DNA from: Halobaculum litoreum
Lineage (GTDB): Archaea; Halobacteriota; Halobacteria; Halobacteriales; Haloferacaceae
Reading direction: 5' to 3'
DNA: 64,000 nucleotides
NCBI RefSeq assembly: GCF_030127125.1
Contig: NZ_CP126156.1
Span: 310,001-374,000, forward strand
Part shown: one piece after another, positions 49,745 through 64,000 of the stretch
How the letters are laid out: the number at the start of each line of letters is the position of its first letter
Numbering within the stretch: the stretch's first letter is position 1
Made by a program: the position numbers and the translations under genes
Notes under the pieces: model-generated
Databases searched by the model: none
The model's input: only the letters and a program-made list of their open reading frames with translations
What the model was told of the DNA's origin: nothing

Positions 49745-49819
49745 GGGCGCTTAGCTCAGTCTGGACAGAGTGCTTGGCTTCGGACCAAGTTGCCGCGGGT
49801 TCAAATCCTGCAGCGCCCA
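49745..49819 (+). tRNA. tRNA-Arg (anticodon TCG)
   Basis: The cloverleaf is complete. The acceptor GGGCGCT pairs with AGCGCCC, with A as discriminator. The D-stem is GCTC/GAGT (one G-T), the anticodon stem CTTGG/CCAAG with loop CTTCGGA giving anticodon TCG, and the T-stem GCGGG/CCTGC (one G-T) with loop TTCAAAT. No intron and no encoded CCA are seen. The GC-rich chromosome ends here and the accessory region begins, so the 3' end is a plausible integration site. Confidence 0.95.
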
Positions 49820-50324
49820 TTCGTTTCTCGAACGGTCCGAATCCGATAGACGTGGGCGGGTTGTTTATATACCAACCGTGGCTGCTGACTTTGATTTCGT
49901 TCGATGGGCGAACGATTCCGAACGATCGTGCTTCCGTCTGGGGTTTGCGCACATCTAAACCGGGGTGAAATAGTCATAATCATTGACTCGTTGGATGTGA
50001 CAGCGAATGCTGATCGTTGTCTCGCGCGCGCAGTTCTCTACGAACGAGACTAACAGGCATTTTGGATTGGAATCAACGATCTTGCTTGAGCCTGTGCGCG
50101 CGAACGGCTCCGGCGTTTCTTCGCTGATCTCACCGCTCTCAGTGTGAGCAATCGCGGTGGCTGAGTGGTTGATGCGATAGTAGACGCATTGCTGGCTCGA
50201 AGTAGTAGGCTGTCCGTGTTGGCCACCTAGTGCCGTGACCGTAGTAGACGCAATTTGTCAGGGACCGTCGAATTGTTTTTACCCTTCAGCTTGACTCGCG
50301 TCGTAGACAGCACTCCGAAGATGC
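49820..50324. other. Non-coding left border of the accessory region
   Basis: This stretch of 505 bases between the tRNA and hsdR has no believable gene. The sequence is far less GC-rich than the core. TAGTAGACGCA occurs twice, at about 50178-50188 and 50242-50252. I looked for a second copy of the tRNA 3' end here and in the rest of the window and did not find one by eye. Confidence 0.5.
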
Positions 50325-53234
50325 CTAGTTATCGCATCCTGCACCTCGTCGTTGTCCATAAACTTCGCAAAGAGCTTCCTGATTCTGGTCCATCCGGTCA
50401 ATGAACATATTGGTCAGAGCGTCGTCGAACTCCAGCGCGAAGTTCTCCATATTGTTCACTTGAGCCGAACGGCGAAGCCGATCGTCCTCCAGCGCATCCT
50501 CCTTCAACTGGTCCAAGAACAGTTGATCGGCGTCGGTGAAGTCCGTCCCAAGTTCTTCGTTGATTCGGTCGACGATGCGTGAAAGCTCCACCTCGTCGTC
50601 CTCAGACGATCCGGTTCCAGTATCGCTCGGTGAGGAGACACCTTTCCCAGACGGTCCGAGGTCGATGCTTCCCTCCTCGTTCTTTTCCAGTCGGTAGTAC
50701 TGGAGTGCGAGCTCGTCATCAAACTCGACACTGGAGCCGCCTGAACGGGGGAGTTCCTTGTAGAGGAACCTGCCGAATGTGTAGAGTTTCTCAAGCTCTT
50801 CGTCGGCGTAGTTGACAATCTGCGACTGGAACTTGTAGAGGCGGAGGAACGAGCGGAGTTTCGATATGAACTCGTCCTGCTTCTCGACTGTCGCGGTCTT
50901 GAATTGGTGCCTTGCTGGCTGCACAAGGCTACTCAGCTTTGCGTGCGCTCCCTCGGTCCCGGTGTTCGACGGGTCGAAGAACGCTTCCGCGAAACGATCG
51001 ACTTCCTCTTCCCTGTAGATTCTGAACGCGTCGAGTTCCGCTTCCAACTGGTAGATATGCTGGGGATCGGTCTTACCGTCCAACGTCGTCTTTTCGTAGT
51101 AGGGCTCGAACGCCTCACGGATATCCTCGTGATCGTTCTCGAAGTCGAGGACGAACGTGTCGTCCTTCCCCGCGTAGCGACGGTTGAGCCGTGACAACGT
51201 CTGGACGGCCTGGATCCCGGAGAGCCGCTTATCGACGTACATCGTGTGCAAGCGGGGCTGGTCGAAGCCAGTCTGGTACTTGTCGGCGACGACGAGAACA
51301 CGGTGCTCCGGCGTGTCGAACACGCTCGGAAGTTCCGACTCCTTGATCCCGTCGTTCATTCCCTCCTCGGTGTACTCGATACCACCGTCTTCGACTGTCC
51401 CGGAGAAGGCGACGAGCGTTCCGAGGTCATACCCTTGCTCGTCAGTGTACTCGTCGATCGCCTTCTTGTAGCGAACGGCGGCCTTCCGCGAGGACGTCAC
51501 GATCATTGCCTTCGCCTTGCCGCCGATCTTCTTGCTCGTGTGCTCCCGGAAGTGCTCAACGATGATCTCGACCTTCTGTGAGATGTTGTGCGGGTGGAGC
51601 TTCAGGTACTTCGAGACCGCCTTGACCGCCTTCTTCTCCGGCACCTCCGGATCCTCCTCGATGGCCTTGGCGATGCCGTAGAACGTCTCGTAGGTCGTGT
51701 AGTTCTGCAACACGTCGAGGATGAACCCCTCCTCAATCGCCTGCTTCATCGAGTAGAGGTGGAACGGCTCGGGGTCTTCACCGTCCACGCTGTGGCCGAA
51801 CGCCTGCAACGTCTTCCCCTTCGGCGTCGCGGTGAACGCGAAGAAACTGAGGTTCTCTTGGTTCCCCCGTGTCTCCGCCGCCTGCGCGATGGCGTCTTCG
51901 GCGTCCGCGTCGTCCGGGAGGTCCAACCCCGAGAGGATCTGTTTCATCTCGTGGGCCATCTCTCCCGACTGGCTACTGTGCGCCTCGTCAACGACGACAG
52001 CGTAGTCCCGTTCGGGCAGCTTCTTCGCGTGTTCGACGACGTGCGGGAACGTCTGGAGCGTCGTGATGACGACCGGCTTTCCGGCTTCCAACGCCTCCGC
52101 GAGTTCCTCAGACTTCGAACGTCCTTCTCCCTTGATCGCGTGGACGATCCCCGTCTTGTGGTCCAACTCGTAGATGGTGTTGCGAAGCTGTTCGTCTAGG
52201 ACCGTGCGGTCGGTGACGACGACGACGCCGTCGTACACCGCTTCGTCGTTCGTGTCGTGCAGTGAGACGAGGCGATGGACGAGCCACGCGATGGACTTGC
52301 TCTTCCCGCTTCCGGTGGAGTGCTGGATGAGGTAGTCCTCACCCGCGCCGTTCTCGCGCGTACTGGCGATCAACTTCCGGACGCATTCGAGCTGGTGGTA
52401 CCGAGGGAAGATCATCGTCTCTTCTTCCCCCACCTTCACGCCGTCCTGGTAGATCTCCTCCGTGTCGATGTGGATGAACCGCTGGATGATCTCCATCCAA
52501 CTGTCCTTCTCCCACACCTCCTTCCAGAGATATGCCGTCCGGTGATCGTCTTCGACCGGCGGATTCCCAGCGCCCTTCTCGTGACCCTTATTGAACGGGA
52601 GGAAGCTGGTATCGTCGCCGTTCAGTTCGGTCGTGTACGCGACCTCACGGGTGTCGATCGCGAAGTGAACGAGTGCCCCGCGCTTGAACCGGAGCGCAGG
52701 CTCGCCGGGGTCGCGGTCCTGCTTGTACTGCCGCTTCGCGTGGTCGACGGTCTGATCTGTCTGGGGGTTCTTCAACTCCGCCGTCGCGACCGGCAGGCCG
52801 TTGAGACTCAATGCGAGGTCAATCTCTAGAGACTGATCGGTCGGGGAGTATCGGAACTGCCGCGTCACACCCAACTGGTTCGCCTCGTAGCGGCGCTGCA
52901 CCTCGGGGTTCTTCCCCGTGTTCGGTTGGAAGTACGCGAGATCGATGCGGGTGCCGGTGGTTCGGAAGCCGTGGCGGAGGAGGTGAAGGGTGCCGTGATT
53001 CTCTAGTGCGCTCGTGAGTTCGCGGAGGAACCGTTCCTCAGCCTTCCCCTTATATGCGTTCTCCAGCTTCGCCCACTGGTCGGGCTGTGTCTCCTGAACG
53101 AACGAGACGACGACGTCGGGGAAGATCCCGCGTTCGGCGTCGAAGTTGCTCTTGTGGATTTGCTCGTAGCCACGGTCGAGCAGTTGGCTTTCTATGTGCG
53201 TCTCAAAGGCCTGCTCGTCGTACTGATTGCTCAT
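50325..53234 (-). CDS. hsdR: Type I restriction enzyme R subunit
   Basis: This 969-residue motor and nuclease subunit has an N-terminal PD-(D/E)XK nuclease with Asp139 (LEIDLAL) and Glu153/Lys155 (TAELKN), then a superfamily 2 helicase with Walker A HSTGSGKS (305-312), DEAH box (416-419) and the later motifs VADKYQTGFDQPRLHTMYVDK and LSRLNRR. It translocates and cuts DNA lacking the host methylation when complexed with HsdM and HsdS. The start overlaps the hsdS stop by four bases. Domains are complete, so the system looks active. Confidence 0.96.
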   Translation of the reverse strand: MSNQYDEQAFETHIESQLLDRGYEQIHKSNFDAERGIFPDVVVSFVQETQPDQWAKLENAYKGKAEERFLRELTSALENHGTLHLLRHGFRTTGTRIDLAYFQPNTGKNPEVQRRYEANQLGVTRQFRYSPTDQSLEIDLALSLNGLPVATAELKNPQTDQTVDHAKRQYKQDRDPGEPALRFKRGALVHFAIDTREVAYTTELNGDDTSFLPFNKGHEKGAGNPPVEDDHRTAYLWKEVWEKDSWMEIIQRFIHIDTEEIYQDGVKVGEEETMIFPRYHQLECVRKLIASTRENGAGEDYLIQHSTGSGKSKSIAWLVHRLVSLHDTNDEAVYDGVVVVTDRTVLDEQLRNTIYELDHKTGIVHAIKGEGRSKSEELAEALEAGKPVVITTLQTFPHVVEHAKKLPERDYAVVVDEAHSSQSGEMAHEMKQILSGLDLPDDADAEDAIAQAAETRGNQENLSFFAFTATPKGKTLQAFGHSVDGEDPEPFHLYSMKQAIEEGFILDVLQNYTTYETFYGIAKAIEEDPEVPEKKAVKAVSKYLKLHPHNISQKVEIIVEHFREHTSKKIGGKAKAMIVTSSRKAAVRYKKAIDEYTDEQGYDLGTLVAFSGTVEDGGIEYTEEGMNDGIKESELPSVFDTPEHRVLVVADKYQTGFDQPRLHTMYVDKRLSGIQAVQTLSRLNRRYAGKDDTFVLDFENDHEDIREAFEPYYEKTTLDGKTDPQHIYQLEAELDAFRIYREEEVDRFAEAFFDPSNTGTEGAHAKLSSLVQPARHQFKTATVEKQDEFISKLRSFLRLYKFQSQIVNYADEELEKLYTFGRFLYKELPRSGGSSVEFDDELALQYYRLEKNEEGSIDLGPSGKGVSSPSDTGTGSSEDDEVELSRIVDRINEELGTDFTDADQLFLDQLKEDALEDDRLRRSAQVNNMENFALEFDDALTNMFIDRMDQNQEALCEVYGQRRGAGCDN

Positions 53235-54574
53235 ACAGGTTGATCTTGCATATCACCTCGTTCCTCGCTTACATCAATCTGGCCCGTTACAGCAGCAGTG
53301 ATCAGGGCTTGGCGCTTTTCGGAAAGTAGTTCTCTAATTGATTCGATATTTTTGCTCACCTGACTAAGTTGATCGATTTTCGAGTCGAGGGATCTTGCGA
53401 TCATTGTTTGTTCGTCTTCCGGAGGAACAGGGATTATTCCCCTCCTCAAGTCATACAAGTTCACTCCTTGAACTGTCGCACCTCTGGATACCAAATCCAT
53501 CTGCTGACGGAAAGGCTCAGATTGCAGAGCATATTGTAGCCAATCGGGATCAATATGCTCTTTTGGCGAGATCCTCGCAGTATCCTGGGTCAGATTGGCA
53601 CCTTCCAACTCAGGAGGGATTTTGACCACTCGGCCAACGCTGCCACGAATTTCGTATACTAAGTCTCCAGCATCCAATTCGGACCTGCTGTATTGGTTAG
53701 ATTTTTGCTCAGTTGTTTTCGATAACAACTCTGGATCAAGTCGCTCTGGCTTACAGTCGCCGCCTTTGATGATTGGAACCCCCTCATCACGATTAGGCCC
53801 TGGCTTAATGATGCCATAGACTATCGGTGTATGGGATTTGCGCAGGTGATTCAGCCTCTTTAATTCCCAACCATAAGGGATTTGATCATACCATTCTGAA
53901 TCAACATTAAAGAAAGATCGGTCTTGGTGAACACCGCTGACTACCTCGTTAGTTATTAGCGATTTTTTGTACTCATCTAGTAGCAATTTTAATTCGTCTA
54001 AATAATCTATTGACTCAAATATCCCCGATGATTTCTTCTTGATGTATCTTGAAATATCTGCTTGCACCGGCAGGGGTGGGACAGGGATCTTGAGGTTGCC
54101 CAAATCTGCCGACCCAATAGCCGGATAGGAAACACCAGTTGAATTCGCAACAATCCACTCAATGTATGGGTTCGCTCGAATACAATAAGACAGATACTGA
54201 GGGAGAACATTCTGTTGAGGTCTAAGCACTGCAAATCCAGAGGACACAACTGTATTCTCTGTTGGTTCATCGATATAAGCTATTGCCCTCAGATACGTTC
54301 TCACAGTGGAAACTATTGTATCTCCATGGCATACCAATCGTTTGGCACGGCTTGGGGCTTCTCCAAATGTGATCTCCTCATCGAAGGTGATTTCCCCACG
54401 ATCACTGACGGAGGAAATGTCAATATATTTTATTTTGTCATTTTGATCAAACTCCCCGGTCACAGAATCAGGGTTGATCTCGCAGGCATATTTCAACGGA
54501 ACGAGTGACCAATCTGAGGGGATACTAGTCACTGGTGCGTCTTCTTCGCCGACAGTAGTTGTCTCAATTGTCAT
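53231..54574 (-). CDS. hsdS: Type I restriction specificity subunit
   Basis: This 447-residue target-recognition subunit has two target-recognition domains (PSDWSLVPLKYACEINP at the first, PYGWELKRLNHLRKSH at the second), each ending in a conserved coiled-coil helix (SGIFESIDYLDELKLLLDEYKKSLITNEV and LDSKIDQLSQVSKNIESIRELL, EKRQALITAAVTG). The order and length are normal. Its base composition is much more AT-rich than hsdR or most of hsdM (32% GC in one hand-counted line), so the specificity gene probably came from another source. It overlaps both neighbours by four bases. Confidence 0.95.
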   Translation of the reverse strand: MTIETTTVGEEDAPVTSIPSDWSLVPLKYACEINPDSVTGEFDQNDKIKYIDISSVSDRGEITFDEEITFGEAPSRAKRLVCHGDTIVSTVRTYLRAIAYIDEPTENTVVSSGFAVLRPQQNVLPQYLSYCIRANPYIEWIVANSTGVSYPAIGSADLGNLKIPVPPLPVQADISRYIKKKSSGIFESIDYLDELKLLLDEYKKSLITNEVVSGVHQDRSFFNVDSEWYDQIPYGWELKRLNHLRKSHTPIVYGIIKPGPNRDEGVPIIKGGDCKPERLDPELLSKTTEQKSNQYSRSELDAGDLVYEIRGSVGRVVKIPPELEGANLTQDTARISPKEHIDPDWLQYALQSEPFRQQMDLVSRGATVQGVNLYDLRRGIIPVPPEDEQTMIARSLDSKIDQLSQVSKNIESIRELLSEKRQALITAAVTGQIDVSEERGDMQDQPV

Positions 54575-56565
54575 TTTTCTGTGAGCGAATTCAGCATATC
54601 CACAAGTTCATTCTCTACCTCGGATATTTCTGAATTGATCTCACTAACTGGACGTGGCGGGGTGTACTTGTGGAAGTATTTTTCAAATTTTATCTCATAC
54701 CCGACTACACCAAGTGCGCCATCTTGATCGTCGTGATATTTACTGCTCTCATTAATCCACGCATTTTGCGAGTACGGTGCGACCTCTTCCTCAAAGTATT
54801 CGCGAATGTCCGTCCCAAGGGGAACACGCTCCTTCTCACGTAGGTCCGTATCGTGCTCGGGATTACCATTCCCGTCGCGACAGATCTCCGCTTCAGGGTC
54901 ACGTTCACCCAGCGCCCGTTCGATGGCGTTGTAGACGCTGTTTCGCACGTCCAACCCCTTCATATTGAGCGTCAACTCCACCTCGTTCATAAACGCCTCG
55001 CGATCCATCCAGACTTCGTCGCTGTCGAGTTCACCGAGCGCCGCCTTGATCCCTTCCTGGACTTCCTCGTCGCGGTTCGTGAACGCACGTTCGTCGTCGA
55101 GAGACTCGATCGCCTCCTCGGTCGCCCGGAAGCGTAACCGAAGCGGGCGGTCGATGACGATGCGGCGGTAGCCGAACTCTTGGTTGTCGACGACCTTCGA
55201 GCGCCCGTTGTCGTCGAGGTCGCCGAAGATCCGCGTGATCTCGGAGATGTGCTCTTCGGTGAGTTTGTGACGCTTCTCGCCGAGGCTCTCGTCCATCTCC
55301 TCGTACAGTTCGCGGGCGTCGATGAGCTGCGTCTTGCCCTTCCGTTCCTCGGGCTTGTCGTTCGATAGCACCCAGATGTACGTCCGGATCCCCGTGTTGT
55401 AGAAGAGGTTCTCCGGGAGCCCGACGATCGCCTCAAGCCAATCGTTCTCCAGGATCCAGCGCCGGATCGCCGACTCTCCGCTGTTGGGACCGCCGTTGAA
55501 CAACGGCGATCCGTTGAACACGATGGCGAGGCGTGACCCACCCTCGTCGGTGTCCTTGCGCTTGCTGAGCATGTGCTGGAGGAACAGCATCGAACCGTCG
55601 TTCACGCGCGGCGTCCCAGCGCCGAATCGACCGGCGAACCCTTTCTCCTCGTGTTCGCGCTCGATCTCTTCTTTGACCTTCTTCCACGAGACGCCGAACG
55701 GGGGATTCGAGAGCATATAGTCGAACGTCCGCCCCTCGAAGCCGTCGTTCGTGAAGGAGTTCCCGTACGCGATGTTCTCCGGGTCCTGCCCCTTGAGGAG
55801 CATATCGGAGTTACAGACCGCGTACGACTCGGGGTTGAGCTCCTGCCCGTAGACGTGGAGGCTTGCGTCACCATTCATCGCGCGGACGTGGTCCTCGGCG
55901 ACGCTGAGCATCCCACCGGTCCCACACGCAGGGTCGTAGAGGGTCCGAACCGCGCCACCTTCGGTTAGGATTTGGTCGTCCTCGCTGAAGATGAGGTTCA
56001 CCATCAGCTCGATGACCTCTCGGGGGGTGAAGTGCTCCCCAGCGGTCTCGTTGCTGAGCTCGTTGAACTTCCGGATGAGCTCCTCGTAGATGTACCCCAT
56101 CTCCTCGTTGGGGACCGTGTCGGGGTGGAGGTCGATCTCGGCGAACGACTGCATCACCTTAAACAGGAGATCCGCTTCGGCGAGTCGCTCGATCTGGTGG
56201 TCGAAGTCGAACTTGTCGAATATCTCCTTCGTCTCCTCGTCGTACTGGTTGATGTAGTAGTCGAGGTTCTCGGCGAGCTGGTCCGGGTCGTTGCACAGCG
56301 ACTCGAAGGTGTACGTACTCGTGTTGTACACCTCCGCGTTCGCCGCGCGTCTCAGCGCCGGTGCCTTGTTCTCGATTCCGGACTCTTGGAGCTGCTCGTA
56401 CCGCTCCAGTACTTCGTCCTTGTTACGCTCCGTGACACAGTCGAGGCGACGGAGGACGGTCAGCGGGAGGATGACCTTCTGGTACTCCGACTGCTTGTAG
56501 TCCCCTCGGAGAAGGTCCGCGATAGACCAAATAAAATCCGCCTTCTCGTTGAAGTTGTCTACCAT
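54571..56565 (-). CDS. hsdM: Type I DNA methyltransferase subunit
   Basis: This 664-residue N6-adenine methylase has an N-terminal helical domain, SAM motif I DPACGTGGML (211-220) and catalytic motif IV NPPFG (287-291); FTPREVIELMV is the typical lead-in. It modifies host DNA together with HsdS. The last 200 bases or so (before about 54780) share the AT-rich composition of hsdS, while the rest is GC-richer, so the C-terminal part that contacts HsdS seems to have been exchanged along with it. It is the first gene of the operon in transcription order. Confidence 0.96.
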   Translation of the reverse strand: MVDNFNEKADFIWSIADLLRGDYKQSEYQKVILPLTVLRRLDCVTERNKDEVLERYEQLQESGIENKAPALRRAANAEVYNTSTYTFESLCNDPDQLAENLDYYINQYDEETKEIFDKFDFDHQIERLAEADLLFKVMQSFAEIDLHPDTVPNEEMGYIYEELIRKFNELSNETAGEHFTPREVIELMVNLIFSEDDQILTEGGAVRTLYDPACGTGGMLSVAEDHVRAMNGDASLHVYGQELNPESYAVCNSDMLLKGQDPENIAYGNSFTNDGFEGRTFDYMLSNPPFGVSWKKVKEEIEREHEEKGFAGRFGAGTPRVNDGSMLFLQHMLSKRKDTDEGGSRLAIVFNGSPLFNGGPNSGESAIRRWILENDWLEAIVGLPENLFYNTGIRTYIWVLSNDKPEERKGKTQLIDARELYEEMDESLGEKRHKLTEEHISEITRIFGDLDDNGRSKVVDNQEFGYRRIVIDRPLRLRFRATEEAIESLDDERAFTNRDEEVQEGIKAALGELDSDEVWMDREAFMNEVELTLNMKGLDVRNSVYNAIERALGERDPEAEICRDGNGNPEHDTDLREKERVPLGTDIREYFEEEVAPYSQNAWINESSKYHDDQDGALGVVGYEIKFEKYFHKYTPPRPVSEINSEISEVENELVDMLNSLTEK

Positions 56566-56625
56566 CTATTCTGGGGATGGCGAGTCACTTGGATAAACGG
56601 TCCGGTGAAGATACCTGCCCAGTCG

Positions 56626-57009
56626 CTACTGGTCATCGAAATCAGTCCCGGTTGACGGTTCAAAATGCGCTACAGTTACTGCACCGATTCTCAACAACAG
56701 TGCGGCTACGCTTAGGTTCGGTCCAGGTGAGATTGTCTGTCGCTGAGGGTCATAGATGATGACACCAGCGTCCTGAAGTGCCGGTAGATGCGTCTGCGAG
56801 AGCGAATTGTACACGTTTCGATATGGCTCGCCCGTCGCATGGGAGACTTGCACTTGTTCCTCACGTGCAGAGATCTCACGAGCGAGAGACCGAAGAGGTA
56901 CTACTGGGAGTTCGCGCTCGTAGAGAATAGAGATAGTCTGCCTGCGGCGGGGCGTCCGTAGAATATGGTAGAGGTTGGACTCAAAGTCGTCTCCTGCTTC
57001 GTTGTTCAT
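56626..57009 (-). CDS. DUF7344-type winged-helix regulator
   Basis: This 127-residue protein is a winged-helix domain with TPRRRQTISILYEREL, EPYRNVYNSLSQTHLPALQDAGVIIYD, matching the haloarchaeal DUF7344 fold also seen at 18377-18985, but without membrane helices. It lies just upstream of hsdM on the same strand, 60 bases away, so it may control or be cotranscribed with the restriction operon. That link is inferred. Confidence 0.78.
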   Translation of the reverse strand: MNNEAGDDFESNLYHILRTPRRRQTISILYERELPVVPLRSLAREISAREEQVQVSHATGEPYRNVYNSLSQTHLPALQDAGVIIYDPQRQTISPGPNLSVAALLLRIGAVTVAHFEPSTGTDFDDQ

Positions 57010-57108
57010 GACTGTGCGATTGGATCGTTGACTATTCTGACGGTGTTGACGGCATTAACTCCTTCGTAGGAGCAAACGTGTAACAGATGTGATAGCAGAA
57101 GTCGGCCA

Positions 57109-57360
57109 ATGGAAAACGGACCAGGCCGTCCGCCTTCGGTCTCAGACGATCAGATACTGGGGGTCTTCGAATCGGCAGTAGACCCGGTACTAACGGCGTC
57201 GGAGGTCGCGGAACGGCTTGGAATGGGGCGGCGGGGGATCCTCACTCGACTTGAATCCCTCGAAGAACAGGGATATCTCCGCTCAAAGAAAGTCGGCGGA
57301 AGAAGTACTGTTTGGTGGTACCCTGGACACAGTTCTACAAGACCAGTAAACCCCGAATAG
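57109..57360 (+). CDS. Small winged-helix DNA-binding protein
   Basis: This 83-residue protein has the helix-turn-helix and wing VLTASEVAERLGMGRRGILTRLESLEEQGYLRSKKVGGRSTVWW. The fold is typical of haloarchaeal MarR/ArsR-like mini-regulators. It is divergent from the DUF7344 gene, so the pair could form a regulatory switch for the restriction operon. The ATG at 57109 starts MENGPGRPP. Confidence 0.75.
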   Translation: MENGPGRPPSVSDDQILGVFESAVDPVLTASEVAERLGMGRRGILTRLESLEEQGYLRSKKVGGRSTVWWYPGHSSTRPVNPE

Positions 57361-57458
57361 ATGGCTCGGTCTACTGTAGGTTTTGAACGACGGATTCCAC
57401 TGGAATCATCAGAATCACTTTTGACTACACGTAGCGTGGCCGAATCAAGAGCAATCAC

Positions 57459-58106
57459 TTAATCAAACTCTGGCTTCCCGACATACTGATCAAACCAGCG
57501 GGATGCATCCAACTGAGAAATTTTCCGCAGCTGGCGGAGTCGCAACACTTCCTCGGCTATCTCTGATTCCTCTGATGGCAAGTCCTGTTGAATACCCTGC
57601 AGGTAGTTGTCCCGCAACACGAGGTTTCCGTAGTTGAGATCGAGATCCACACCGATCTCCCGGTAAGTCTGGAGGTTGTCGTGCTGGTACTCCCGGTATC
57701 CCCGCTCAATACCCCCCTCAACGAGTCCCTGCATCAGGACTTGCGTCTCCTGCTTGCCCCCCGCGTACATCCCGTAGCTGAAGAACTCGAAAAGATCCAA
57801 CCAACTCCAGAGCAACTGGTCAATGTCTGGGTGGGCTGAGGTCCGCCCCTCTTCGTCCAGTTGTCGGCGCTCACGCGACCAATCGTAGGCGGGTTCGAAC
57901 AGCTGTTGGATGTCCGCAACAGGGAGGTTCTGGGCGATTATGTGGAAGTCGTAGAGGGCGTTCTTGATCCTTTCTCGAATATTGTAGCGACGTACATTCT
58001 GGGCGTTTCTATCGAGATTTTCGCCAGCTCGACCGAGTAGGATTTGGCGGTCGCGCTTGGTCAGGATCCCCCGGTCTCGTTCGACCCAATCGAATTCTTC
58101 CGACAT
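57459..58106 (-). CDS. Haloarchaeal protein of unknown function
   Basis: This 215-residue, mainly helical protein has the N-terminal WVERDRGILTKRDRQILLG and RRYNIRERIKNALYDFHIIAQNLP, a domain that recurs in haloarchaeal accessory genes without a known function. No catalytic motif or membrane helix is clear. Acidic Leu/Gln-rich helices continue to the C-terminus. Its stop lies about 100 bases from the convergent winged-helix gene. Confidence 0.65.
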   Translation of the reverse strand: MSEEFDWVERDRGILTKRDRQILLGRAGENLDRNAQNVRRYNIRERIKNALYDFHIIAQNLPVADIQQLFEPAYDWSRERRQLDEEGRTSAHPDIDQLLWSWLDLFEFFSYGMYAGGKQETQVLMQGLVEGGIERGYREYQHDNLQTYREIGVDLDLNYGNLVLRDNYLQGIQQDLPSEESEIAEEVLRLRQLRKISQLDASRWFDQYVGKPEFD

Positions 58107-58202
58107 ATCTTAGCTCACCAGCTAATTGTGATGCCATATTACTTATCTGCTGGGCTTATGCTGCAAATCAGTTAATTTCACCCCTGTCCTGGTTGGACGT
58201 GT

Positions 58203-58379
58203 ATGTCCGGTCTTGGACTACTCGCGGCGGTAGCGATGTTCACACTGACAAATGTATTCGCGGGGATGCTCCCGACAACGTTCACCGGTGATGCCCAGTT
58301 CGCCGTCTGGCTGGTCGCGCTCGTCGTCGCCATCGCCAGCTATATTTCGGTCGAGCAGGCGATGGCAAGTGCTCGGTAA
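58203..58379 (+). CDS. 58-residue two-helix membrane protein
   Basis: This short gene reads MSGLGLLAAVAMFTLTNVFA and continues with a second helix, VWLVALVVAIASYISVEQAM, ending in ASAR. It has a clean ATG and TAA stop and lies between the DUF protein and the nuclease operon. Its codon usage is closer to the chromosome than that of its neighbours. The function is unknown. Confidence 0.6.
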   Translation: MSGLGLLAAVAMFTLTNVFAGMLPTTFTGDAQFAVWLVALVVAIASYISVEQAMASAR

Positions 58380-58605
58380 AAAAAGGGAAGCTCTTGTCGC
58401 AGGTTCTCTTCATATATTGATTGGTGAGTACGACCACAGCCGATAGGCGGTCAAGTTGGCTTTCAGTTACCTGCTGCAGTTACAATTCTCATCATCGGGC
58501 CCAGTTCAACAGCCATTGACCCACTAGGGCAGTTCAATTACCTAAGAATCAATGACCGATTGAGCAAGTTCGGGGAACGCATAGTATAGGTAGTCAAATC
58601 TCGCC
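58380..58605. promoter_or_regulatory. Promoter region of the nuclease-TFB-recombinase operon
   Basis: These 226 AT-rich bases precede the nuclease gene. ATAGTATAGG at 58581-58590 ends 16 bases before the ATG at 58606 and is the likeliest TATA box, giving an essentially leaderless message. CAGTTCAA occurs twice, at about 58502 and 58531. No coding sequence is seen. Confidence 0.45.
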
Positions 58606-59697
58606 ATGCCTGAACCAGCACCCAACACCCAATCTCGAGATCCAATTGACCCTGAAAGCGTAATTTCTCAACTCTGCGGCGACTCATTCGCGAGGTGGTA
58701 TGACGATCGTGAGTTTCGACAGAACATTCTAGAAGGGCAGCCATATTTCAACGATCTAAATATATTGGATGATCCGAATCGCCACAGCCCAAGTGGCTTA
58801 TTGAACTGCCACCGAAAGCAGTTCTATCAGAAGCTGAACTCGCCCAGAGAGAAAGCGAATCCTGATGGCATCTTCTGGTTTGGAACCGCTTTCGAAGAGC
58901 AGATCGTACTGCCATTTATACAAGATCTAGCCTCGGAGGTTGGAGGATACGTTCGAAAGCATGATTGGATCGATTACAGTACGGAGGTAGACAACACCGA
59001 ATTACGATTCAAAGGAAGAACAGATCCTCTGATTGTTGATTCCGACTCGGTACCAATCGTTCCGATTGAAGTTAAAACGAGAAAGTCGGTCGAGTCGCTC
59101 GATTCGCCCTCCCCCAAACACAGGGCACAGCTTCACGCGTACATAGTTGGTCTGAGCCGCAAGTACGAAATCAAGCCGCCTGATGGGGTAATTCTGTACG
59201 GAAGCCGAGAGACGTTCGACGTCAAGACCTTTCACATTGAGTACAGCGAGCAGTTTTGGGACGAAGTTGTAGTCCCCTGGGCAGCAACGCAAACGACCTC
59301 GCTTCTCGACGAAAATCTCCCACCAGCAGACCCAGAACAAGAGTGGGAGTGTGGATATTGCTCCTATAGAGAGCGCTGTGGTAAAGGAAAATCGCCAGTG
59401 AAAGATAGCGGTGCCCACGGATTTGTTCCAGGATACACAGAATATCCCCACGAGAATGTGGAAGAGTACTTACGCCTGTTTCCAAGCGCCGCTATCCCCT
59501 CTGCAATTGCTTCGAAATTCCCCGATCTTGCTTCGGACCATTCCATCCAGGAGTGGTCCTGTGACCGCTGTGGATACTGTGCCGAGTGGGACGCCGTCAA
59601 ATCAGCTGGAGAGCCACTCTGTCCAGAGTGTGCTGAGGATGATATCTTGATATCGCTCTCACGACCAGAAATGCCCACGGTGGTCCCTGATGAGTGA
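58606..59697 (+). CDS. Cas4/RecB-like PD-(D/E)XK nuclease with extra C-terminal zinc ribbon
   Basis: In this 363-residue nuclease the core shows Asp140 (FKGRTDPLIV), Glu155-x-Lys157 (PIEVKTRK) and Gln175 (HRAQLHAYI), the RecB-type active site. One cysteine before it (Cys68, SGLLNCHRKQ) and three after it (Cys249, Cys252, Cys258 in CGYCSYRERC) are arranged as in the Fe-S-bound Cas4/AddB nucleases. A further domain at about 319-342 adds a zinc ribbon (CDRCGYC, then CPEC). No cas1, cas2 or CRISPR array is in the window, so this is not CRISPR adaptation as seen here. It overlaps the next gene by eight bases. Confidence 0.85.
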   Translation: MPEPAPNTQSRDPIDPESVISQLCGDSFARWYDDREFRQNILEGQPYFNDLNILDDPNRHSPSGLLNCHRKQFYQKLNSPREKANPDGIFWFGTAFEEQIVLPFIQDLASEVGGYVRKHDWIDYSTEVDNTELRFKGRTDPLIVDSDSVPIVPIEVKTRKSVESLDSPSPKHRAQLHAYIVGLSRKYEIKPPDGVILYGSRETFDVKTFHIEYSEQFWDEVVVPWAATQTTSLLDENLPPADPEQEWECGYCSYRERCGKGKSPVKDSGAHGFVPGYTEYPHENVEEYLRLFPSAAIPSAIASKFPDLASDHSIQEWSCDRCGYCAEWDAVKSAGEPLCPECAEDDILISLSRPEMPTVVPDE

Positions 59698-60475
59698 TGC
59701 AAACGTCGGTACCTGTGCCAATCTGTGCCCTCTCTGTGGATCCAAGTCAGGGCTGGATCCAGAGTACATGTTCGAGCAGGTCTGCGCTAATTGTGGCTTT
59801 GTTCTAGATGGTAACGACCCCAAGTTGTTCTTCCAGTCACAGAGGCCAGCAAGTGAATCCAATTTGGCGACTGAATCGTGGCTTGAGTTCGCTTCGGTAC
59901 GCAACGCGACTGAGGATCGCTTAGTCACCGCTATTGATACCATTGAGCAGCTGGGGCTACTGCTGGGCTTAGGAACTCAGTCTCGGATTCGAGGCGCAGA
60001 AATTTTCGGCCGTCTATTCGTTAATGGCGACACACACGGACGCAGAACCGAGGAACTTGCTACAGCCGCACTGTACTGGGCAGTGCGAACCGCTGACCAG
60101 CCAGTTCCGATGACAGTGTTCGCTCGATTCGGTGAAATCGAAAACTCTTCGCTCCGTCACTCCATTGACACGGTCCGTTCAGTTCTGGACATTCCAATCC
60201 CTCCAACTACACCAACAGATTACGTGGGATACCTATCTCACAGGCTCGAACTCACCGATTCAGAAGCTAATGATCTGAATCAGCGTCTTCAATCGTTTGA
60301 GGCCGTCTGTGAATGGACGGGTAGAAATCCGATAGGCGTTGCAGCTGCAGCAGTCTACCGACTACTGGATGGCGATAAGACACAGGCGGAAATCTGTGAG
60401 GCAGCAGGGATCTCCACCGAGACGATCCGGGTCAGAATAGCCGAGTTAGCAGAGGCAAGAGTCAATGATGAATGA
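59690..60475 (+). CDS. Divergent TFIIB-like transcription factor
   Basis: This 261-residue protein has an N-terminal zinc ribbon (CPLC at 13-16, CANC at 32-35) and two cyclin-like folds (about 75-165 and 172-258). The second keeps NPIGVAAAAVYRLL and the DNA-binding helix-turn-helix TQAEICEAAGISTETIRVRIAEL of archaeal TFB. The B-reader/linker region is shorter and unlike chromosomal TFBs, so it may recruit polymerase to special promoters or have another role. It overlaps the nuclease before it (8 bases) and the recombinase after it (8 to 11 bases). Confidence 0.85.
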   Translation: MSDANVGTCANLCPLCGSKSGLDPEYMFEQVCANCGFVLDGNDPKLFFQSQRPASESNLATESWLEFASVRNATEDRLVTAIDTIEQLGLLLGLGTQSRIRGAEIFGRLFVNGDTHGRRTEELATAALYWAVRTADQPVPMTVFARFGEIENSSLRHSIDTVRSVLDIPIPPTTPTDYVGYLSHRLELTDSEANDLNQRLQSFEAVCEWTGRNPIGVAAAAVYRLLDGDKTQAEICEAAGISTETIRVRIAELAEARVNDE

Positions 60476-61424
60476 GGCTCTGTCAGAATCTCAGGATTCA
60501 GGGGTGGACGATTATGTTGCCGTGGCGATTTATGCTCGAACATCGTCGAAGAGCCAGCAGTTTGGCTATTCTCTCAACGAGCAAGTTCGCCAGTGCTTGA
60601 AGCAGTGCGAGGTACAAAATTGGACAGTTCGGTTCATCTATCGAGATGAGGCTGAAAGTGGGAAAGACATAGAGCGCCCGATGTTCCAAAAGATGATGGC
60701 TGGAGCGGAGCGGCGTTGGTTCGACGTGATACTCTTCTGGAAGTTGGATCGCTTCTCAAGGAGTCTTATGCACGCCGTACAACTGGAATCGGGTCTTCGG
60801 GAATACGGAGTTGGTCTGTTCAGCGTCACCGAGCAGATAGACACCACCACTGCTGCAGGTCGGTTCAACTTCCGCAACATCGCGAGTGCAGCGGAGTTTG
60901 AACGCGACATGATACAGCAACGGACTCAGATGGGCCTCAGAGCCCTCGCGATGGATCACAAGTGGCCGAACGACCGACCACCCTTGGGGTACACGAAGCT
61001 CCCAGACGAAAGGCTCTCTATCGACTCTGAGGCATCCGACCTCGTACGAGCCATATTTGAATCATACATCGAGGAGCGTTCCATGCCCAGAGTTGCGAGG
61101 AAACTAAACGAGAATAGATCTCTGACAAGTCAAGGTAACAAATGGTGTCCTCGGGCAGTAGGAGATATTCTGCGAAATGAACTCTATACTGGGCAGTATT
61201 CAGTAGGAGATGTCTCTGAGTATGTTTCTGAATACAGAATTATCCCTGATGACGTATTCGTACGAGCGACTGAAATAAGAATGCGGTTTCAGAACCGCTC
61301 CGTGCCGCAACGTCAGATGGAACCCTCTCGAAAAGAGCGGATCGTACGGGATGTAATGGATACCTATGTCGAATTCTTGAAGTCCGGTCAAGCATCGTTA
61401 ACGGACCCCAAGAAAACTATCTGA
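60468..61424 (+). CDS. Serine recombinase (resolvase/integrase type)
   Basis: This site-specific recombinase of about 318 residues has the N-terminal catalytic domain YARTSSKSQQFGYSLNEQ with the nucleophile serine in the YARTS motif, RPMFQKMMAGAERRWFDVILFWKLDRFSRS, and an AAEFERDMIQQRTQMGL helix, then a recombinase domain (PLGYTKLPDERLSIDS, ARKLNENRSLTSQGNKW). It could cut and rejoin element DNA, for integration, excision or inversion. It is the third gene of a tightly overlapping operon with the nuclease and TFB. Two ATGs (60465 and 60468) are adjacent. Confidence 0.92.
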   Translation: MNEALSESQDSGVDDYVAVAIYARTSSKSQQFGYSLNEQVRQCLKQCEVQNWTVRFIYRDEAESGKDIERPMFQKMMAGAERRWFDVILFWKLDRFSRSLMHAVQLESGLREYGVGLFSVTEQIDTTTAAGRFNFRNIASAAEFERDMIQQRTQMGLRALAMDHKWPNDRPPLGYTKLPDERLSIDSEASDLVRAIFESYIEERSMPRVARKLNENRSLTSQGNKWCPRAVGDILRNELYTGQYSVGDVSEYVSEYRIIPDDVFVRATEIRMRFQNRSVPQRQMEPSRKERIVRDVMDTYVEFLKSGQASLTDPKKTI

Positions 61425-61506
61425 GTTTGGGAGGAGTGACGTACTACACATTGAAGGTGTATCCAGCGGTGCTAACGAATGATGTGGATGGTAAAATCAA
61501 CAGAGG

Positions 61507-61540
61507 TGGCCGTCGCTACCGGTCGAACCGTTGCTACGGC
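61507..61540. terminator. Imperfect hairpin between convergent recombinase genes
   Basis: GGCCGTCGCTAC and GTTGCTACGGCC flank a CCGGTCGAACCG centre; the arms pair over about 12 bases with two mismatches and a bulge. It sits between the stop of one recombinase (61424) and that of the convergent one (61553), where a bidirectional terminator would be expected. No T-run follows. A recombination site is an alternative reading. Confidence 0.4.
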
Positions 61541-61552
61541 CAAAGTACTTCT

Positions 61553-62764
61553 TCAGTTCTTCAGTTGGTCCAAGAGGCTCCAGAAGTCCGGTAGCTTCTG
61601 AAGGAGTTCCATGTGTTCGTAATCGCTGTCTCGGGGCCACTTACGCGACTTCCCGCACTCAGTGCAGCGATACATGTGGCCCTTGATTGGTGCACCGGTG
61701 ATCGATCGCTGTCCGTCTTTCACCAGCGCACCACGGCATGATTCGCACCGCAATTCGACTAGAGGGCTGGACTCAACGACAGTGAACAGGTCGAACTCTT
61801 GGATGAAATCTACAAGCCCTTTTGAGTTGTCAGTTTCATATTTCTGGTTCTTCTCTTCGATGATACGTTGCGCTTCGTCGAACGTTCTCTCGTCGACGAT
61901 CTGAAGCTCTGGTTCATCTCGAATTTTCCTTCCTTCGTAGTCGAGTGCGGTGTTTTCGGGGAGTTGCGGTTTCCCTTTGTACGCGAATTCTTGGAGTAGG
62001 GTTTTCACACGGTGGCCATCGAGGACATCACCGTGTCTTTGTTCAATACGTCGTTTCGCTTCTTGATATACCTCACAGTCCACGAATTCCTCAAACAGGT
62101 CTTTGACGATAGGTGCTTTTTCAGCGTTCTTCTGAATCCAGTCATCGTCAGTTAGATCGTAACCAAGCGGAACGATGGGGTTGACTGCTTTCCAATTCTT
62201 TTTCTCGATGAAACTTCGGGCCATCGATTCCTTCGATTTCCTGATTCGGAAATCGTTGTTCAGCTGTGCCATGAGCGACATGAGCGTGGTTTGCATGAGA
62301 CCACGGGTGCTTGAGACGTCTTTCTGACCAGACGGAGTGATCAGAGTCACGTCACATTCTGTTTGAAGAATGTAGATGAAGTAGAGCGTCTCAGCTGCTG
62401 CTCGACCGATTCGGTCAACATCTTGAACGAGAAGATATGACGGCCCCTCCATTTGCGCTTCTCGGAATACCCGCTGAATACCATCTCGCTCAAAACTACC
62501 ACCGGTTTGCGCCCGATCTTGGATCGGTTCGCAGTGAAGTGGGATGTCTTCGTTCTTAGCTATGCGTTTCAGTTGATCGACTTGTGTTTCTAGGCTATCT
62601 CCTTCACGAGCCTGTTTTTGACTACTGACCCGTGCGTAGATGATGCCAGTGTCCTCGCTCTCGTCAGATTGGTCTTCTCCGTTCCAACAGTCTGGCTTGG
62701 AACCCGCGTTGGGAGAGTTCTGAGAGGTGTCTTCGAAGTTGGTTAACTCAGACTGCTCCTTCAC
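61553..62764 (-). CDS. Second serine recombinase with C-terminal zinc ribbon
   Basis: This recombinase of about 403 residues has catalytic YARVSSQKQAREGDSLETQ (Ser47 from this start), YLLVQDVDRIGRAA and SLMAQLNNDFRIRKSKE, then a recombinase domain (PLGYDLTDDDWIQKN, KTLLQEFAYKGKP). A C-terminal zinc ribbon (CESC, then CTEC) ends the protein. I take the GTG at 62764 because the frame upstream, although open to an ATG at 62977 that overlaps the integrase stop (TAATG), has no coding character and contains a TATA-like CTATAAGTAC. It is convergent with the operon at 58606-61424. Confidence 0.87.
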   Translation of the reverse strand: MKEQSELTNFEDTSQNSPNAGSKPDCWNGEDQSDESEDTGIIYARVSSQKQAREGDSLETQVDQLKRIAKNEDIPLHCEPIQDRAQTGGSFERDGIQRVFREAQMEGPSYLLVQDVDRIGRAAAETLYFIYILQTECDVTLITPSGQKDVSSTRGLMQTTLMSLMAQLNNDFRIRKSKESMARSFIEKKNWKAVNPIVPLGYDLTDDDWIQKNAEKAPIVKDLFEEFVDCEVYQEAKRRIEQRHGDVLDGHRVKTLLQEFAYKGKPQLPENTALDYEGRKIRDEPELQIVDERTFDEAQRIIEEKNQKYETDNSKGLVDFIQEFDLFTVVESSPLVELRCESCRGALVKDGQRSITGAPIKGHMYRCTECGKSRKWPRDSDYEHMELLQKLPDFWSLLDQLKN

Positions 62765-62976
62765 CGATGACGAGAGTAGAACTAGTGGAACTATCCAACT
62801 CAAGATGCTAACACGGCTGATCTGCTGATAAGAGGTCTGCCCCTGAGTACTTATAGAGGGTAGGATACGGAGAGGGTACCCTGAGCGTATCCGACCTTTC
62901 TTAAGTAGTCTGTGGCAGATGCTGCGTAGCTTATAAACAGTTGGATGGAACCAGATCGCGGCCAGAGCAACGAACA

Positions 62977-64000
62977 TTACAGATATCCTCCTTCATCGAC
63001 ATCTTGGTGCAGTCGCTCGAGCCGACGACGACGGAACTTACGACGCTGTTCGGGGGTTCGCTCGTCGTAATGTTTCTCGATGACCGATTCACTCACATCG
63101 CAACGGGCACTGAGCGTTCCGACCCTGAGCCCCTGTTGGCGCATCTGTGAGATGTATCCATGGCGGAGCGCGTACGGTGGCCGACTCGATGGACACTTCG
63201 ACGCTTTATCACTGCTCTTGGCTGCCTCACACGATGCCGGATCCTTGTCATGTGGACAGCCCGAACCGATCTCACACGGTCGGCTCCACTTGTAGATATA
63301 TTTCCGCATCGTCGACTTCGAAAGACGTCCCCTTGTTGAGGTGAGGAACGGATGTCGTCCAGAAGGCGAAGTCGAATCAACCCGATGGTGTTCGACGTAG
63401 TCGCGGAAGATCTCTGCGACGTCGTTGTTGATGACAAGCTCAGTTTCACCTTTTTCACCGTTCTTGAGCGATGTCTCGCTTGGCCGATGTCGGAAGGCAA
63501 GGTAGGGCTCGTCGCCCTCTAGACGGAGATCTTTGAGATCGAGTGAGTGCAGACAACCAGGACGACGACCTGTGTGAGCATGGAAGGCCCAGACGACGTG
63601 ATCTGCAGTTGCGTATCTGTAACTCGAGAGGTGCTCAAGAATATCCTTGACACGGCTGTCAGAGATATCGATGTCTCGGACTCCTTCCCCTTCTGCAAGG
63701 GTTGGTGGATCAATGCGCTCGTGCAGACCCGACCGGACAGCCTCTATGTCCTCTAAGAATTTGATGAAGTCCCGAAGAAGGTACAGATCATCCCGCATAG
63801 TCTTCGGTGACAGCGGTGAATCACCGTTGTGACTGTCTTTTCGACGCCAGTGACGATACTGCGTGAGCTGCCGAATGGTCACTTCACTCAGGACGTCGAT
63901 CCCCCGCATCTCGCAGAATCCTAAGAAGTACTCTAGCTTCCTTCGATATTCTTCTGTGGTGTTAGATCGGACAGTAAACGACTTGTGCTCTAAGAATTCG
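62977..64000 (-). CDS. Tyrosine recombinase (phage/XerC-type integrase), 5' end outside the window
   Basis: At least 340 residues are present, continuing past the right edge (the frame stays open to 63999, reading EFLEHKSFTVRSN before the first Met). An N-terminal SAM-like core-binding region (MRDDLYLLRDFIKFLEDIEAV) is followed by the catalytic domain: Arg in HAHTGRRPG, RH in PPYALRHGYIS and the nucleophile Tyr in SVIEKHYDER. A Cys/His cluster (GSGCPHDKDPASCEA) precedes the RH motif, as in many haloarchaeal element integrases. It probably moves the surrounding element. Confidence 0.92.
   Translation of the reverse strand, partial: EFLEHKSFTVRSNTTEEYRRKLEYFLGFCEMRGIDVLSEVTIRQLTQYRHWRRKDSHNGDSPLSPKTMRDDLYLLRDFIKFLEDIEAVRSGLHERIDPPTLAEGEGVRDIDISDSRVKDILEHLSSYRYATADHVVWAFHAHTGRRPGCLHSLDLKDLRLEGDEPYLAFRHRPSETSLKNGEKGETELVINNDVAEIFRDYVEHHRVDSTSPSGRHPFLTSTRGRLSKSTMRKYIYKWSRPCEIGSGCPHDKDPASCEAAKSSDKASKCPSSRPPYALRHGYISQMRQQGLRVGTLSARCDVSESVIEKHYDERTPEQRRKFRRRRLERLHQDVDEGGYL

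Follow-up and report, generated by a model that had tools for sequence, protein, structure and literature searches.

Conserved Association in Archaea of a Stripped-Down TFIIB Relative with Two Serine Recombinases and, in Most Cases, a DNA-Cutting Enzyme

Introduction

Why is a relative of the basal transcription factor TFIIB encoded between a Cas4-type nuclease and a serine recombinase? The question is raised by a gene cluster of Halobaculum litoreum, which lies in the window analyzed here (the whole stretch of 64,000 nucleotides, positions 310,001 to 374,000 of contig NZ_CP126156.1, assembly GCF_030127125.1). A sequence-only reading of this window had described three overlapping genes, for a nuclease (NUC), a TFIIB homologue (the TFB-like protein) and a serine recombinase (SR1), and had considered a recombination or defense module with its own transcription program. 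Here we report that archaea maintain, as a unit, a stripped-down TFIIB relative and two serine recombinases, in most cases accompanied by a DNA-cutting enzyme. The claim of linkage is strong. It suggests that part of the transcription machinery has been reused to help cut and rejoin DNA, and among several readings we favor one that gives the TFB-like protein a role in recombination.

Results

Linkage of the TFB-Like Gene and Two Serine Recombinases

The three genes do overlap as had been described. The frames of NUC and TFB share 8 bases and those of TFB and SR1 share 11 (8 if the alternative ATG at 60468 is used), and all are on the plus strand. Among 292 sampled haloarchaeal genomes, the trio was found within 5 kb in 20, which belonged to 16 genera and 7 families and showed two gene orders, here orders I (NUC-TFB-SR1) and II (NUC-SR1-TFB). 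It thus recurs in unrelated backgrounds and is not the property of a single clonal lineage. These 20 loci include L039, where SR1 is interrupted, and L079, where the nuclease is encoded on one strand and both TFB and SR1 on the other.

SR1 (E ≤ 1e-60) was detected in 24 of the 292 genomes, with a TFB-like neighbor in 24/24 and the nuclease at the same locus in 20. In G188 a 3-kb contig begins with TFB-SR1, and the nuclease stands at the end of another contig. The nuclease is missing from the SR1 locus in the other three genomes, where its place is taken by a 247-aa gene without a Pfam match (G218), by nothing (G115), or by a ParB-like gene (G066). A serine recombinase gene of >370 aa (SR2) lies on the strand opposite to the nuclease in 17/20 trio loci; the exceptions are L079, where a rearrangement has left it convergent to SR1, L052, where it is in pieces, and L074, where it was not found. 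The earlier reading had overlooked SR2, and also that the nuclease is exchangeable (absent or elsewhere in 3/24 SR1 genomes).

The two orders form matching groups in the TFB, SR1 and SR2 trees. The tree-distance correlations were 0.73 for TFB-SR1 (n = 24), 0.74 for TFB-SR2 (n = 22) and 0.83 for SR1-SR2 (n = 21), each reached in 0/2000 permutations. Those of the nuclease were 0.36 with TFB (n = 21, 0/2000), 0.22 with SR1 (n = 20, 18/2000) and 0.16 with SR2 (n = 19, 79/2000). This comparison used 19–24 shared loci per pair, leaving out the interrupted SR1 of L039 as well as three loci for SR2, which is fragmented in L052, partial in L109 and was not found in L074. Shared descent alone can explain such correlations, and their weight lies in the contrast with the nuclease. 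Because the distances of TFB, SR1 and SR2 co-vary more than those of the nuclease, and TFB and SR1 adjoin in every SR1 genome, the tight unit is the TFB-like gene, SR1 and the usually convergent SR2. Alignment A1 covers 19 of the 24 SR1 sequences, A2 covers 19 of 25 TFBs and A3 covers 23 of 50 nucleases.

The Unit Beyond Haloarchaea

The second collection represented 84,980 species by a single genome each, and the best 80 of 539 loci were kept; its haloarchaeal set overlaps that of the first, so that the two are not independent samples. SR1 had 41–76% identity in 29 of these best 80 loci, and TFB adjoined it in 26/29 (21/21 haloarchaeal and 5/8 others). Among the 29, SR2 was convergent in 22 and the haloarchaeal nuclease was present in 15. 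Of the 26 loci, 15 have the order TFB-SR1 and 11 the order SR1-TFB; across both orders, the TFB and SR1 frames share 4 or 8 bases in 17 loci. None of the 51 loci of lower identity had a TFB match, which is a soft control since only 23/51 are archaeal by title.

According to bin labels, the non-haloarchaeal loci with TFB come from Bathyarchaeota (L160, L168, L171), Thaumarchaeota (L172) and Poribacteria (L162), and those without a TFB match from Hadesarchaea (L163), Archaeoglobi (L166) and Euryarchaeota (L169). The TFB of L162 suggests a mis-binned archaeon. In a search of 392 genomes of the phylum, SR1 occurred in 7, one of them outside the class, and is thus sparse there.

These results bear on the reading that the genes belong to an ordinary mobile-element neighborhood and travel together without working together. 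The various contexts of the nuclease described below are in line with it, and so are the decaying modules with an interrupted SR1 (L039), a fragmented SR2 (L052) or a truncated TFB (L046). But TFB-SR1 adjacency holds in 24/24 and 26/29 loci, across order changes and distant archaea, and we regard mere co-travel as improbable.

Outside the loci that carry the haloarchaeal nuclease, five proteins encoded before SR1 (L151, L162, L166, L168, L172) are chained by blastp, with a weakest link of 1e-5. They share invariant H, D, E and K, one N-terminal Cys and an E-x-K pattern, and those of L151, L166 and L172 also have a C-terminal CxxC(x4-5)C. The corresponding genes of L160 and L171 match DUF2130, and in L133 and L167 the position of the nuclease, immediately ahead of TFB/SR1, is occupied by ParB-like genes. 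The idea that a nuclease is always present before SR1 was rejected: alignment of two of the five proteins with the haloarchaeal nuclease by hhalign was not significant, a fold search gave 0/208 matches at E ≤ 0.001 (on a model with a predicted local distance difference test score, pLDDT, of 71), and the motifs are a lead only.

The TFB-Like Protein Lacks the B-Reader and B-Linker

The TFB-like protein matches the Pfam TFIIB family (5.8e-14) and retains a zinc ribbon, two cyclin repeats and a helix-turn-helix (HTH). The B-reader/B-linker is absent from 25/25 aligned SR1-linked TFBs and present in the four complete ribbon-bearing host TFB rows; of the other host rows, one is empty, one is truncated at the start and one lacks a ribbon. 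The altered linker noted earlier is thus a gap of ~55–60 residues between ribbon and core, in an alignment judged by eye. The same motifs are missing in 5/5 non-haloarchaeal linked TFBs, one of which ends early at a contig edge. In a tree of 31 linked against 9 canonical TFBs, the linked ones form their own clade (support 0.997); the canonical sequences are few and the branches long, and the empty and start-cut host rows were used from stop to stop.

Two further positions correspond to V283 and R286 of human TFIIB, which we take to contact the TFIIB recognition element (BRE), although the literature search gave no paper on them. At the first, E occurs in 27/27 haloarchaeal linked TFBs versus V in 9/9 canonical ones. 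At the second, the 16 linked TFBs of order I have R and the 11 of order II have W, and the canonical ones have R in 9/9. Four other archaeal linked TFBs are mixed at these positions, and one has the canonical V and R.

A review places the B-linker deep in RNA polymerase, at the active site (PMC7289017). Because the B-reader/B-linker is missing and the clade is separate, the linked TFBs are unlikely to be ordinary initiation factors, and the loss in 25/25 leaves the private transcription program proposed earlier less supported. The linked TFBs may instead be helpers comparable to Sulfolobus TFB3, a protein that works in trans together with canonical TFB (PMC7289017). The protein could then be a dedicated transcriptional co-activator or repressor of the element, similar to the DNA-damage-induced TFB3, and would control the recombinase operon without being needed for recombination. 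The retained ribbon, cyclin folds and HTH would suit such a role, as would the in trans action of a TFB paralogue and the presence in the host of eight TFIIB-repeat proteins including this one (16 matches) and two TBPs. However, TFB adjoins and overlaps SR1 in both orders and co-varies with both recombinases, and other candidate regulators recur upstream of NUC: the putative winged-helix protein wH2 in 9/20 trio loci, wH7 or wH8 in 12/20 and neither in 6/20 (the wH7/wH8 count is from automatic gene picks, which missed the wH7 of the window itself). We consider this regulator role somewhat unlikely. A TFB-like protein without a zinc ribbon is also encoded on the second contig of the host (L140, 8042-8773, plus strand).

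Conserved Residues of SR1 and SR2

SR1 matches the Pfam domains Resolvase (PF00239, 8.3e-35) and Recombinase (PF07508, 2e-12). Its active site is intact, as had been read: R25, S27, S65, R71, D95, R96 and R99 are invariant in 24/24 aligned rows (23 genomes and plasmid L032, without the interrupted SR1 of L039). The catalytic Ser and Arg, presumably so by the known roles of these residues, are kept in SR1 (24/24) and SR2 (22/22), and a C-terminal Cys cluster is invariant in the aligned SR2 rows. SR1 has no Pfam zinc-ribbon domain and ~50 residues after PF07508, which makes a separate DNA-binding partner plausible.

Serine integrases use unrelated proteins as directionality factors, and these act through the C-terminal coiled-coil region of the integrase. 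The co-variation of TFB with SR1 and SR2 would agree with a TFB-like protein that switches one of them between integration and excision. SR1, however, shows no domain after PF07508: beyond its two domains, only a chance-level ADK match (0.18) appeared at E ≤ 1, and a coiled coil was not predicted separately. The chance that the TFB-like protein is a directionality factor is therefore slight.

The Nuclease Is an Exchangeable Part

NUC matches PDDEXK_1 (4.8e-10) and Cas_Cas4 (2.4e-5) in Pfam and Cas4 in PADLOC (1.1e-14). Its description as an Fe-S-type Cas4 nuclease with an added zinc ribbon agrees with 50/50 aligned rows, in which the PD-(D/E)XK residues D140, E155, K157 and Q175 are invariant, as are the cysteines of the predicted Fe-S-type site (C68, C249, C252, C258) and of the extra ribbon (C319, C322, C339, C342). 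Two of these rows, L035 and L065, are identical in DNA where compared.

The nuclease occurs in 45/292 haloarchaeal genomes and 28/77 genera; one of the 45, G195, has a short match only, and no nuclease was called there at the locus stage. The 47 nuclease loci comprise 20 of type A (TFB and a serine recombinase within 5 kb), 11 of type B (with the gene F10), 9 of type C (a Cdc6/Orc1-family gene upstream) and 7 others. A same-strand tyrosine recombinase of one family is found in 10/11 type B loci, and a transposase-like gene downstream in 7/9 type C loci. The nuclease is thus an exchangeable part that is also found beside unrelated recombinases and replication genes.

Type B represents an alternative module, in which the same nuclease is joined by F10 and, as further members, by a tyrosine recombinase and a small HTH/coil protein (L064, L043, L044, L048, L050, L053, L057, L066, L068, L075). 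F10 of L064 has no Pfam match, and its model resembles DnaQ-type exonucleases (best E 8.7e-5, template modeling score ~0.5); no acidic residue is invariant across 12 sequences. A replication-gene block in which the nuclease lies downstream of a Cdc6/Orc1 gene, mostly with a transposase-like gene nearby, recurs in L054, L056, L059, L060, L061, L065 and L078 and on plasmids L033, L034 and L035. In L046 (9204-9473, minus strand), an 89-aa TFB remnant with a zinc ribbon follows the nuclease and is probably a decayed module.

Our searches gave no sign of CRISPR adaptation, which had been discounted earlier: no cas1 was found in the host genome (0/1; assembly 86% complete; cas2 not searched), and in 49800-64000 none of the repeats inspected (20 of 25 families) formed an array with regular spacing.

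Repeats Around the Module and Viral Relatives

Neither a recombination site of the module nor an empty site was found. In 12 loci searched for repeats, most matches were 11–14 bases long. Longer ones were an 18-base inverted pair (L052), a 28-base direct pair (L070), a 17-base repeat (L062), a 15-base inverted repeat (L077) and, in L044, which has no TFB, repeats of 89 and 17 bases; none was common between loci. Inversion of the wH2/wH7 pair by a recombinase found no support: L036 and L049 do have the pair in flipped orientation, but in neither were inverted repeats >12 bases found around the module.

The 87% homology of L058 and L067 ends just outside NUC and SR2. These ends found no support as an attachment site: the extra 1.1 kb in L058 looks by eye like an insertion sequence, and the block before SR2 has no partner before NUC (L058, L067, L070). 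This 32-base block upstream of SR2, with 0–3 mismatches, is present in five order-II loci (starting at L058 14875, L067 13902, L070 13490, L158 4644 and L164 10150) and absent from the other order-II loci examined; L070 and L164 are probably one contig.

A close viral source was also rejected. No nuclease relative was among 30 pattern matches in IMG/VR, whose SR1 relatives have only 26–47% identity (best 80 of 136), and 50,697 phage records gave no nuclease or TFB match (SR1 was not tried there). Viral relatives do exist, as profiles match the nuclease (phrog_1706, “CRISPR/Cas system associated,” 1.7e-21), TFB (phrog_20431, unknown function, 9.2e-17) and SR1 (phrog_95, integrase, 1.1e-74).

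Island Setting and Neighboring Genes

The guanine-cytosine content of 2-kb bins falls from 0.65–0.77 before 50 kb to 0.51–0.58 after it. The 14-base 3′ end of tRNA-Arg (49807-49820) is repeated at a position equivalent to 72110-72123, within a 52-base 81% repeat, which gives an island of ~22.3 kb. In G063, which has no nuclease or SR1 match, a relative of the second tyrosine integrase of the island adjoins the equivalent repeat. Because of this relative and of the boundary repeat in the tRNA gene, the island was probably inserted by a tyrosine integrase.

Table 1. Features of the gene cluster and its island (window positions).
Feature	Position	Strand	Description
tRNA-Arg(TCG)	49745..49819	+	island boundary
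HsdR	50325-53234	-	type I restriction, island cargo
HsdS	53231-54574	-	type I restriction, island cargo
HsdM	54571-56565	-	type I restriction, island cargo
wH2	56626..57009	-	DUF7344 protein, putative winged helix
wH7	57109..57360	+	small winged-helix protein
215-aa protein	57459..58106	-	no Pfam match; between regulators and NUC
NUC, 363 aa	58606..59697	+	ORF (open reading frame); Cas4-architecture PD-(D/E)XK nuclease, 4-Cys (Fe-S type) site, extra C-terminal zinc ribbon
TFB-like protein, 261 aa	59690..60475	+	zinc ribbon, two cyclin folds, HTH; without B-reader/B-linker
SR1, 319 aa	60465..61424	+	small serine recombinase; catalytic domain, PF07508 domain, short tail
SR2	61553..62977	-	second serine recombinase; C-terminal Cys cluster; convergent to SR1; counted in unit
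TYRa	62977..64000, on to position equivalent 64113 past the window	-	tyrosine integrase abutting SR2; Pfam 8.4e-4 (below its cut-off), phrog_1 5.1e-13

TYRa abuts SR2 in 7/20 trio loci. The family of the 215-aa protein was seen in fewer than three loci, and it probably lies outside the unit. A 58-aa frame just upstream of NUC (58203-58379, plus strand) has the look of a small membrane protein, judged by eye.

The type I restriction genes in the same island would suit a defense module that turns the nuclease and the recombinases against invading DNA, and genes clustering with HsdM of the window lie near two other trio loci (L038 and L074). But the PADLOC matches of the trio proteins are all to Cas4, apart from a weak one of TFB to mad1 (0.015), and the neighbors vary between loci. 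A defense function is very improbable.

Discussion

Our preferred reading, held tentatively from sequence comparisons, is that the cluster may provide site-specific recombination for an archaeal mobile element, with a DNA-binding partner derived from a TFB. SR1 and SR2 would be the serine recombinases, predicted to be active, that cut and rejoin DNA. The TFB-like protein would derive from a transcription factor whose promoter-opening segment was lost, whereas its cyclin folds, HTH and zinc ribbon were retained. It may act beside SR1, in contact with it and possibly together with the host TBP, by sequence-specific binding and bending of DNA, and would choose or assemble the recombination site. 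The Cas4-type nuclease could serve as an exchangeable DNA-processing part.

Several results weigh against this reading. Linkage and co-variation are evidence of joint inheritance, not of contact, and the nuclease co-varies with TFB and SR1 above chance. The TFB tree has the limits given above, TFB was not found beside SR1 in 3/29 loci, and no site of the module or repeat common to the loci emerged. The trio also need not be the inserter of its island.

A wider version of the proposal is rather unlikely in our view: a basal transcription factor turned into a recombinase subunit, within an old machine of nuclease, TFB and two serine recombinases common to several archaeal phyla, where TFB, with host TBP or alone, marks the recombinase site as a self-encoded analogue of the use of TFIIIB by Ty3. 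If the proposed role is true, the coupling of a basal factor without its initiation segment to a site-specific recombinase would add a new mode of controlling or targeting DNA recombination, and the way in which archaeal elements choose their sites could be tested on it. The recurrence of a haloarchaeal Cas4-type nuclease beside unrelated recombinases and replication genes is shown in either case.

The literature search found no paper on a Cas4-like nuclease, haloarchaea and a serine recombinase together, with subscription journals and preprints largely outside its range. In the parts of PMC5704561, PMC4158269, PMC6563490, PMC7289017, PMC3528665 and PMC8632968 available, the closest statement is that TFIIB genes stand next to ParB in thaumarchaeal integrative-conjugative elements (PMC6563490). 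Those elements likewise carry a TFIIB homologue on a mobile element, and ParB-like genes occur in our L133 and L167; their neighbors, however, are ParB and type IV secretion genes, and no coupling to a serine recombinase is named in that part. NUC resembles Cas4, including solo and mobile-element Cas4 (PMC5704561), in D, E-x-K, Q and one N-terminal and three C-terminal cysteines, but differs in having no cas1 found, an extra zinc ribbon, and recombinases and TFB as partners; the main text of that paper uses none of the words haloarchaea, halobacteria or TFIIB. The absence of a Cas1 integrase from the host genome, within the completeness given above, also separates the system from casposons.

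SR1 shares the catalytic and PF07508 domains with large serine integrases, and SR2 an invariant Cys cluster, but SR1 has no recognized domain past PF07508, and two serine recombinases with a TFB-like partner are found here. General TFB/TFIIB factors have the same zinc ribbon, two cyclin folds and HTH, whereas the linked proteins have lost the B-reader/B-linker, carry altered putative BRE-contact residues and form a clade of their own. In Ty3, a TBP-containing TFIIIB complex places the integration machinery (PMC8632968), which would be an analogy if the preferred reading holds; there, however, the factor is owned by the host and serves a retrotransposon integrase.

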